Shown one piece after another: positions 18,915 to 27,341 of a stretch of 35,246 bases of DNA. Each line of letters starts with the position of its first letter. The first letter of the stretch is position 1. The notes under the pieces were generated by a model, which did no database searches, was not told where the DNA came from, and was given only the letters and a program-made list of their open reading frames with translations. The position numbers and the translations under genes were made by a program. The DNA is from Streptomyces glaucescens (GTDB lineage: Bacteria; Actinomycetota; Actinomycetes; Streptomycetales; Streptomycetaceae), in contig NZ_MUND01000144.1 in NCBI RefSeq assembly GCF_002154375.1, forward strand, positions 1 through 35,246, written 5' to 3'.

Positions 18915-21900
18915 TCACCGTGCCTCCCCGGGCAGCAGCGGGTCGTCGGGACCCTCCGACCGGTGCGGGGCACCGGGGCGGCGTCGGTCAGGATCGGCCA
19001 GCCAGTGGTGGACTGCGAGCGCGGTGGTACGGGCGTGCTCCTCCAGCACGGTGAAGTGGTCACCGGGCACGGTGACTTCGGCGTGCGGCAGGCTCCAGAC
19101 CGGGGCGGGCTCCGTGCCGGGCAGCGGGTCCCGGGCCCGTACGAAGAGGGTGGGGGCATCGAGTGGTGAGGGCTCCCAGCCGGCGAACAGCTCGAAGTAC
19201 CCGGCCATGGCGGTGAGCCGGTCCGGGTCGGCCGAGGGGAACTCCGCGGCCCGGTGCAGCATCTCCGACGTCATCGCGGAGAGCGCCTGCCCACGGTCGT
19301 CACTGCTCGGATAGGTGTCCACCAGGACGACGGCGAGCGGGGCGGAGCCTTCGGCCTCCAGCCGCTCAGCCACGGCCTGGGCCACCCAGCCACCGGCCGA
19401 GCGGCCCAGCAGGACCACCGGACCATCACCCGCGACCGCGCGGACGGCAGCGGCCTGAGCGGTGACGAGGGCGTCCAGAGTGGCCGGCAGCGTCTCCCCG
19501 GCCGCGAACCCCGGATGCCGCACCGCCGATACCGGTCGCAGACCCCGCAGCCCGACGCCGAAGCGCGCGTACTCCTGGGGCCCCGAGAGCACGCTGAGGG
19601 CGGGGAAGCAGACCAGCCGGGGCCCCGCGCCGCCCGGTGCGAGCGTGACGGGGGCGAGTGCCGCACGGGACGCGCCGGCCGTGTCGAAGACCGGACGGAG
19701 GCGCGCGGCGATGGTGAGCAGCGCCATGCCGTCCCACGTCCGCCCGCGGTCGCAGGCGGTGCGGAACAGCGCGCCCAGGGAGATGTCCGAAGCAGCTGCG
19801 GCGTCCGGGCGGCCCGCCACCCGCGGCGGGTCTTCCGACCGGCCGGAAGCTCCGGGACCGGAAACACCGTCGTCCGCCGGACGGCCGAAGCTGTCCGGAT
19901 GGCCGAAGCTGTCCGGATGGCCGACGGCAGCCGACCCTCCGGGGGAGCCGGGAGGAGTCGCCTCGCGGGCGTACCGCTCCGCCAGCTCGGCGGCGACTGC
20001 TCGCGGGGTCGGGAAGTCCAGCAGCAGCGTGGCCGGCAGCGCCAGGCCCGTCGACGTCACGAGCAGGTTGCGCAGATCGACCGCGGCCAGGGAGTCGAGC
20101 CCCAGGTCTGCCAGCAGATCGTCCTCGTCGATCGCGCTCGCCCCCTCGGGGTGACCCAGTACCGAGGCCGCCAGGGCCCGTACCTCCGTGAGCAGCAGTC
20201 CGCTCCGCTCACCCGGGGAAGCGGCCGCCAGCCGCCGGCCGAGCACAGCCCCGCCGCCCGCGCCCGCTGCGACGGAGACGGGCGTCCGGGACCGGTCCAC
20301 CGCCGGATCGCCACCGCTGAGGGTGCGCGGATCGAGGCGGGCCGCCACCACCACCGGGTCGTCCCCCGCCACGGCGGAGTCGAAGAGGGCCAGGCCCTCG
20401 CCCTCCTCCAACGGGCCGAACCCCGAGCGGGCCATCCGCCGCAGGTCCGCGTCACCGAGGTGCGCCATCATGCCCCCGTTCTGCCGCCAGGGACCCCAGA
20501 CGATCGACGTACCGGGCATACCCAGCCGCCTGCGGTGCTGTGCCAGCGCGTCCAGCACGCAATTGGCAGCCGCGTAGTTGGCCTGACCTGCGGAGCCGAA
20601 GGCACCCGCCACCGAGGAGAACAGCGCGAACATGGACAGGTCGCACTCCCGGGTCAGCTCGTGCAGAGTGAGGGCGGCGTCCGCCTTGGGCCGCAGCACC
20701 CGCTCCAGACGACCGGTGGTGAGTGACGGGACGATCCCGTCGTCCAGCACCCCCGCCGCATGCACCACGCCGGTCAGCGGATGGGCCGCCGGCACCGAGT
20801 CGAGCAGGGCGGCGAGCGCCGTCCGGTCCGCGACGTCGCACGCCCGGACGGTCACCTCGGCGCCCGACTCGCCCAGTTCCGCGACGAGTTCCTTCACCCC
20901 GGGTGCGTCCCGTCCGCGTCGGCCGGCGAGCACCAGGTGCCGGACGCCATGGGCGGTGACCAGGTGCCGTGCCACGAGCATGCCCAGGGAACCGGTGCCG
21001 CCGGTGACCAGGACGGTGCCCTCAGGACCCAGCCGCCTCACGGGCCGTTGTTCCTCCGTCGTCCCGGTCACCCGTACCAGCCTCGGGACGTACGCCGTTC
21101 CCCGTCGTACGGCGATCTCCGGCGCCGCGGCGGCCAGCAGGCCGGGGAGGAGGCGCCAGGAGTCGGGATGACCGTCCGTGTCGACCAGGGCGAAACGGCC
21201 CGGATTCTCCCGCTGGGCCGAGCGGATCAGTCCCCATATCGGCGCGTGGGCCGGCACGGACGTGTCTGCGCCGGGTGCGCCGGAGTCTCCTGGACCGTTG
21301 CCACCGTCCACCGAGCCGCCGTCGGCCGAACCTCCAGCGTGCGGGGTCACGGCGCCGGAGGTGACGAGGACGAGACGGGAGTCCGCCGGACGCGGTTCGG
21401 CGAGCCACTCCTGGACAAGCTTCAGTGCCCAGCCCGCCGCCCATCGGGTCCCCGCCGCCGGATCCCGCGTATCACCGGTCGCCGCCGGTGGCGGCGGGCA
21501 CGGTGCGACGAGGACGGCCGGGGCCGCGTCGCCCGTCTCCGGGCCGGCGTACACCGGGACGCCGGAGTTCCGGGGCGCGAGCACGTCCACCAGCGGTGTG
21601 CCGGCTGCTTCCAGAACGCCCCACGAGGGCGTCGCCGCAAGGGCGGGCGGCTCGGGCAGCGGCACCCAGTCCATCCGGTGGAGCCCCCCGGTGACCGCAA
21701 CAGCCGTTCCCGATCCGGTACGGGGAAGGGGCCGGAGCGTCAGCGAACGTACCGCCGCCACCGGCGCGCCCGACGCTTCGGTCAGCTCCACCCCGGCCCG
21801 TCCGTCCGGCCCGGGCGTGATTCTCACCCGTAGCCGCCGCGCGCCGGCCGTGTGCAGCCGCACCCCGCTGAAGGCGAACGGCAGGGAGACCCCACCGCCG

Positions 21901-27341: not shown

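Follow-up and report, generated by a model that had tools for sequence, protein, structure and literature searches.

Gene organization and domain layout

The window (the whole stretch of DNA that was analysed, 35,246 nucleotides) is an entire contig, NZ_MUND01000144.1, of Streptomyces glaucescens. It contains a complete one-module PKS gene on the reverse strand (18915-27341), as judged from the ORF, Pfam matches, and comparison of starts and boundaries within the family. The gene is a single intact ORF of 2808 aa with a GTG start at 27341 and its stop codon, included in these limits, at 18915. An alternative longer frame begins with ATG at 27869 (2984 aa). GTG 27341 was preferred because relatives align from it and because a promoter-like element lies at 27372-27401. 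A 362-aa frame (17830-18918) overlapping the PKS stop was rejected as spurious; it had no Pfam match and failed a codon-position filter.

Pfam analysis gave the domain order ligase-ACP-KS-AT-DH-(psiKR)KR-ACP-TE on one polypeptide. The domains below all lie on the reverse strand and, except where stated, were assigned by Pfam and residue alignment. The AMP-dependent ligase (CAL) spans residues 15-526 (25764-27299; Pfam, alignment, and predicted model), with an AMP-binding subdomain at 15-400, its C-terminal domain at 450-526, and a predicted pocket of A238, M239, Q241, H340, and P348. ACP1 (residues 556-620, 25482-25676) carries Ser584; KS (residues 644-1018, 24288-25412; placed also by a KS tree) carries Cys816, His951, and His990. 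Ser1284 and an HAFH motif (1384-1387), which predicts malonyl-CoA, are found in AT (residues 1189-1478, 22908-23777), and His1605 and Asp1795 in DH (residues 1573-1876, 21714-22625). A structural SpnB-type Rossmann subdomain (residues 2023-2087, 21081-21275; Pfam) precedes KR (residues 2108-2286, 20484-21020), which is predicted to be B-type and has LDD at 2199-2201, Tyr2256, and Asn2260. ACP2, with Ser2417, has approximate limits (about residues 2395-2440, 20022-20159); PP-binding was matched in two stretches. The C-terminal thioesterase (residues 2575-2780, 19002-19619; Ser2648, Asp2675, and His2762) resembles TEs of macrolide lines. Pfam matches and conserved residues agree with the original prediction of an intact ligase, ACP, KS, AT, DH, KR, ACP, and TE in one 2808-residue chain. 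Every domain named there was found, and the SpnB-type Rossmann domain has to be added to its list.

The contig extends 7.9 kb beyond the gene on the upstream side and 18.9 kb on the downstream side, which set the limits of the inspection. No PKS, regulator, or usual PKS partner adjoining the PKS gene was found by Pfam among the 20 other ORFs of the window, which confirms within the window the earlier claim that the gene is self-contained, without partner PKS or tailoring genes beside it. The neighbours encode an aldo/keto reductase, an SDR, an FAD oxidoreductase, an RHS-repeat protein, NfeD and Band-7 proteins, a CAP protein, a TNT-domain protein, a P-type ATPase, and others. More than 11 kb separate the PKS gene from the closest genes of oxidoreductase type (2331-7522), and the further KS and AT genes of the source genome are on other contigs. 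The protein thus has one KS module on one polypeptide and no partner PKS nearby, i.e., it is a monomodular type I PKS, a kind of enzyme that is already known.

Two other regions of the window were recorded separately. Upstream of the PKS gene, a gene for a protein of 229 aa whose C-terminal part is a TNT domain (28129-28818, reverse strand) is followed by an 81-aa ORF (27870-28115, reverse strand); the pair looks like a polymorphic toxin with its immunity gene. On the forward strand, a 2126-aa ORF (7930-14310) has an RHS repeat as its sole Pfam match at E <= 0.001.

Relatives of the PKS in Streptomyces

Residues 1-625 were searched against the protein collection; 3040 candidates were scored, of which 924 were hits at E <= 1e-10. 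Among the best 120 of these hits, 115 were longer than 2550 aa and 5 were shorter; the window's own protein (row P0003, 100% identical) is counted in both the 115 and the 120. The check proposed earlier, for homologues with the identical domain order, thus yielded 114 other full-length relatives among the best 120 rows, and the PKS belongs to a family rather than being unique. Where organisms were named in these rows, they were Streptomyces, with Embleya once. A literature search, with subscription papers incompletely covered, found no title or abstract describing this protein.

For the comparison of catalytic residues, the five rows (of 120) below 2550 aa were set aside, as was L102, which has an internal stop. 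KS Cys/His/His, AT Ser, DH His/Asp, KR Lys/Ser/Tyr/Asn, both ACP Ser, and TE Ser/Asp/His were identical in all 115 full-length rows, and AT HAFH was kept in 113-114 of them. Inactivating substitutions, which the original prediction had named as evidence that would count against it, were therefore absent from the main catalytic residues. dN/dS was 0.34-0.43 in six pairs (two of eight pairs were not computable), indicating moderate constraint only. Other Streptomyces also contain copies of the PKS gene that are broken, fragmentary, or frameshifted (L036, L043, L044, and L031); strain NEAU-Y11 has one full-length copy (L034) and one broken copy (L043).

We refer to the window's family as clade A. 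A second group, clade B, has the same domain order (checked by Pfam in L039 and by colinear alignment in the remaining loci), a length of about 2.6-3.0 kaa, and 43-48% identity over the full length in most loci. It keeps the catalytic residues, except for TE Cys in place of Ser in 2 of 20 and Y and S at HAFH positions in 2 of 20. At E <= 1e-120, a ligase match was present in 112 of 392 genomes of the genus. Matches ending before query residue 610 were classed as ligase-only and those reaching 610 or beyond as ligase plus ACP; a clade A genome was one with >= 66% identity. The classes overlap and comprise 18 clade A genomes (four of them with split or partial matches), 40 clade B-like, and 62 ligase-only. 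Many ligase-only matches head much longer PKSs.

A locus of one gene

Flanking regions were compared in 31 clade A loci, i.e., the window, 23 named loci, and 7 further stretches, mostly with 6-10 kb upstream and 3-6 kb downstream. The 23 were taken from 43 named loci; L023, L035, L036, L038, L042, L043, and L044 (fragments or broken copies), L039 (moved to clade B), and L045-L056 (other ligases) were left out. The 7 came from 15 further stretches, of which seven duplicated named loci and one, L101, was split.

No flanking gene family recurred in more than three of the 31 loci. Upstream matches of >= 150 bp were found in 2 of 465 pairs, L026/L094 and L022/L025, the latter in one piece and at another distance. 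Downstream, 7 of 465 pairs had such matches: L026/L094; L019, L029, and L031, which have an amidase gene in common; L015/L088; L021/L026 (a 152-bp match); and L016/window, where the common region is further out. These pairs aside, the downstream regions were mostly alike in stretches of just 41-97 bp. In an adjacent-upstream comparison of 28 loci (L023, L035, L038, and L044 included), upstream similarity, where found, ended within 142 bp of the start codon; the exception was L035/L038, from one strain. Whole-locus queries gave the same picture. When L021 was compared with 7 related genomes and L041 with 7 others, the shared block was the gene plus <100 bp on each side in 14 of 14 cases. Among the matches listed, other parts of the query loci were elsewhere in the genome (in G018, 0.68 Mb away).

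Self-containment therefore extends beyond the window: across related species the PKS gene keeps hardly any neighbours. The original prediction had singled out adjacent biosynthetic genes as evidence against a self-contained gene; none recurs in more than three loci, and what remains is the common surroundings of L026 and L094 and the amidase gene of three loci. The flank method was able to detect a partner, since one was visible in clade B, where a halogenase directly follows the PKS in 7 of 21 loci. These findings indicate that the clade A locus consists of one gene. More distant genes beyond the examined flanks may act in trans.

The common downstream gene was observed in clade B loci L039, L104, L106, L109, L112, L117, and L120; in L039 it is a flavin-dependent (tryptophan-type) halogenase by Pfam. 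In two other clade B loci, on plasmids of NBC_00316 (L134) and NBC_01259 (L135), genes for FAD monooxygenases, an "arylcarboxylate reductase", and an ACP S-malonyltransferase lie next to the PKS; these surroundings are possible aromatic polyketide clusters.

Conserved element upstream of the start codon

In 28 of 31 clade A loci, the sequence G(G/C/A)AACC, 16 bases, (C/G)(A/G/T)T(C/T)(C/T)TC, mostly in the form GGnAACC-N16-C(A/G)TCCTC, was found 58-74 bases before the first aligned codon. The window has GGGAACC-N16-CATCCTC as an exact match at 27372-27401 (reverse strand), 5' of the start codon. The element was absent from the three most divergent members (L096-L098), and across all loci it occurred one other time on the PKS strand. 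A search of the whole source genome for GGVAACC-N16-CRTCCTC revealed three exact matches, that of the PKS gene included; with one mismatch allowed there were 82 matches (exact ones included), vs 32 for a reversed control. The element resembles the ECF sigma promoter consensus and is probably the PKS gene's own promoter, putatively of the ECF type. Read in this way, promoter and gene would together form the inherited unit.

Inheritance and mobility

Distances of rpoB and PKS were weakly correlated, with Spearman coefficients of 0.19 over 378 pairs and 0.31 over 300 core pairs. The two trees have many subclades in common; L017, L020, and L091 are near L019 in PKS and far from it in rpoB. In L021/L088 and L029/L041, rpoB is about 99% identical and the PKS gene lies in different surroundings, whereas L026 and L094, with nearly identical rpoB, have their surroundings in common. 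Clade A was matched with 60-80% identity in six plasmid records, of which three are from S. atratus; the two plasmids inspected, those of S. atratus NBC_00043 (918 kb) and strain KN37 (578 kb), are linear. In view of the mixed tree agreement, the relocations, and the plasmid copies, descent appears to be mixed, i.e., partly vertical with relocation and some transfer.

The gene might instead look solitary just because neighbours turn over in variable chromosome arms, its descent being mainly vertical and no gene-plus-promoter unit having moved. We give this explanation a little under an even chance. It accounts for the many subclades common to both trees, for the surroundings retained by L026/L094, and for flanks that are themselves patchy in relatives; it is also consistent with the lack of a clean empty site. 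For the window, none of the matches listed from 120 relatives had its flank genes side by side. It does not readily account for PKS surroundings that differ between strains with rpoB about 99% identical, for at least one grouping that conflicts with rpoB, or for PKS copies on plasmids. Whether by turnover or by movement of a gene-plus-promoter unit, the neighbours are dispensable.

Proposed mode of action

We propose, at even confidence, that this one-module PKS activates one ring acid, likely adds units from malonyl-CoA in more than one round to give a trans-unsaturated acid, and likely releases the product without dedicated partners. The ligase would convert the acid and ATP to acyl-AMP and load it onto ACP1. 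KS would then condense the loaded acid with malonyl units selected by AT (HAFH, predicted malonyl), KR (LDD, predicted B-type) and DH would leave a trans double bond in each round, and TE would hydrolyse the product, releasing the acid. The assignments made earlier, of HAFH in AT to malonyl-CoA and of B-type KR plus DH to a trans double bond, hold insofar as both HAFH and LDD are present; they remain predictions drawn from known motifs. We infer that the gene amounts to a minimal pathway.

Iteration is likely and is the weakest step of this proposal; it is suggested because single-module type I PKSs generally iterate, as they are described in PMC10308959. The KS placement that had been proposed as a check did not single out an iterative KS. 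In a KS tree without iterative references, clade A KSs formed one clade among ordinary modular KSs, to which they are up to 74.5% identical, a position that fits single extension as well as iteration. They do not adjoin clade B KSs, and the two clades may therefore have been assembled separately.

The main rival is a single extension, in which the ring acid is extended once and released as a substituted trans 3-aryl or cycloalkenyl acrylic acid. This reading, which likens the enzyme to the loading module and module 1 of an ansamycin PKS cut off by a thioesterase, is possible but on the unlikely side. The grouping with modular KSs, the fact that the nearest ligases load modular lines, and the resemblance of TE to macrolide-line TEs all suit it. 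Simpler enzymes, however, easily make cinnamate-like acids, and the description of one-module type I PKSs as generally iterative likewise argues against it.

Ligase relatives and starter acid

Clade A ligases have a mean identity of 52.8% to 119 AHBA-type ligases, 49.6% to clade B, and 25-34% to general ligases; identity to AHBA-type loaders reaches 57-58%. The AHBA-type set consists of ligases like that of L136 (row P0123, an NRPS, was left out) and includes MycD1 and "ansamitocin polyketide synthase A". The L136 cluster contains a DegT-family aminotransferase and a HAD protein that matched NCBIfam "AHBA synthesis associated protein" with 348.6 bits vs a cut-off of 246.65. L136 itself, an AHBA-type ansamycin-like PKS cluster, was observed on the NBC_01243 plasmid (869 kb), a linear plasmid typed as mobilizable. 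Two other ligase relatives adjoin chorismatase genes in G359. Because its members include AHBA-type and chorismatase-adjacent relatives, ring acids are the likely substrates of the wider ligase family.

A ligase tree with its root on distant ligases placed clade A in a single clade (support 1.0), whose sister group combines clade B and the AHBA-type loaders; the join of the three groups had support 0.88. AHBA-type loaders formed one clade (0.994) nested within clade B (0.977), and clade A ligases lie outside this AHBA-loading clade. Ansamycin starts may thus derive from one-module enzymes of this layout, an idea that is tentative because the tree is rooted over a long distance.

Five predicted pocket positions were mapped by GrsA numbering. 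Of 120 clade A ligases, 104 have the code AMQHP at these positions and 12 have AMHHP; AHBA-type ligases have SLHAS in 95 of 119. Clade B has several codes, and the two chorismatase-adjacent ligases have SLHCL and SLHTS. The code SFHAM was present in 6 of 7 halogenase-linked clade B loci vs 3 of 14 others (Fisher p 0.016); the pocket code therefore tracks genomic context. The ligase-pocket alignment recommended at the outset was thus carried through against AHBA-type ligases, and it set a nearly invariant AMQHP apart from SLHAS.

A match to AHBA synthase (E <= 1e-110) was not found in the window's genome, and it was absent from 15 of 18 clade A genomes, the window's included. The three clade A genomes with a match all also hold a ligase-only match. 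Overall, 44 of 392 genomes had a match (30 of 62 ligase-only, 6 of 40 clade B-like, and 9 of 280 without a ligase match), and frequency did not differ significantly between clade A genomes and the rest (p 0.44). AHBA was rejected as starter for most members. Chorismatases, whose products are 3-hydroxybenzoate or DHCHC, were found in 3 of 18 clade A genomes and 0 of 18 comparison genomes (p 0.23). With chorismatase in just these 3 genomes of clade A, a chorismatase-derived acid is unlikely as starter for most members.

The original suggestion of a free acid from metabolism can thus be made more specific: the acid is predicted to be a ring-type carboxylic acid, and for most members neither AHBA nor an acid derived from chorismatase is likely. 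Relationship, pocket positions, and fold comparison point to a putative ring-acid specificity. The starter is likely one dedicated ring acid, different from AHBA and present in most Streptomyces. Because most family genomes lack AHBA synthase and chorismatase, a benzoate-like compound of general metabolism is a likely candidate.

Priming by a fatty acid, with a 2-enoic or dienoic lipid as product, is improbable. The best NCBIfam matches among the ligase models listed were "long-chain-fatty-acid--CoA ligase" and malonyl-CoA synthase, as this reading would expect, but both were below cut-offs, and the closer relatives load AHBA or adjoin chorismatases. The predicted ligase model (mean pLDDT 83.9; 24 sequences) was compared by Foldseek. 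Malonyl-CoA synthetases, a chimera of one, and a feruloyl-CoA synthetase lead by E-value; the highest TMq among the 50 matches listed (0.82) was to benzoate-CoA ligases, and aryl-acid ligases as highest-TMq matches argue against a fatty-acid starter. Judged by its sequence, the ligase is not fatty-acyl-like. Least probable is that the gene is what remains of an AHBA-primed ansamycin cluster after loss of the other modules: despite the high identity to AHBA-type loaders, an AHBA synthase match is missing from most family genomes, the pocket is different and nearly fixed, it is the loaders that are nested, within clade B, and not the family within the loaders, and the catalytic residues are identical in every full-length row.

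Comparison with known systems

The closest counterparts of the ring-acid-primed PKS are the loading module and module 1 of ansamycin PKSs (MycD1, "ansamitocin polyketide synthase A"), which similarly have an N-terminal ligase about 53% identical, followed by ACP and KS-AT-DH-KR-type modules. Rifamycin RifA is an AHBA-primed ansamycin PKS, and RifF is a separate amide-forming enzyme. Whereas AHBA-primed ansamycin PKSs have several modules and amide-forming release, the window PKS has one KS and a C-terminal TE; the family also differs from them in its nearly fixed pocket and in the rarity of AHBA synthase matches among its genomes. Monomodular iterative type I PKSs of Streptomyces, reportedly described by Wang et al. 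(2020, PNAS), likewise have one module on one protein; the window PKS differs in having its own ligase, its own TE, and no conserved cluster. Clade B has the same CAL-ACP-KS-AT-DH-KR-ACP-TE layout but differs in its variable ligase pocket, in the halogenase that follows a third of its PKSs, and in two plasmid loci with FAD monooxygenases and "arylcarboxylate reductase". PTM synthases, given as KS-AT-DH-KR-ACP-C-A-PCP-TE in PMC10308959, are similar in having a single KS-AT-DH-KR-ACP module with TE. By comparison with that layout, the window PKS has no C-A-PCP after the module (Pfam) and has a ligase at the front.

What is new here is the single-gene locus, a ligase that appears non-fatty-acyl with a distinct pocket, and the nesting of AHBA-type loaders among one-module enzymes. 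Taken to its full extent, the reading would be of a whole pathway in one gene: a self-priming, iterating, and self-releasing PKS with its own promoter that relocates as one unit among Streptomyces, uses one unrecognised ring acid of core metabolism, and belongs to the lineage from which AHBA-loading ansamycin starts arose. In this complete form we consider the reading rather doubtful. The nearly fixed pocket of the ligase suggests a single starter acid throughout the family, and the branching of the ligase tree hints at an origin of ansamycin starts in one-module enzymes of this kind. Natural-product genes are sought as clusters; a clusterless PKS recurring in many Streptomyces species would be a pathway with one gene to be expressed and one compound to be found, and thus directly testable.
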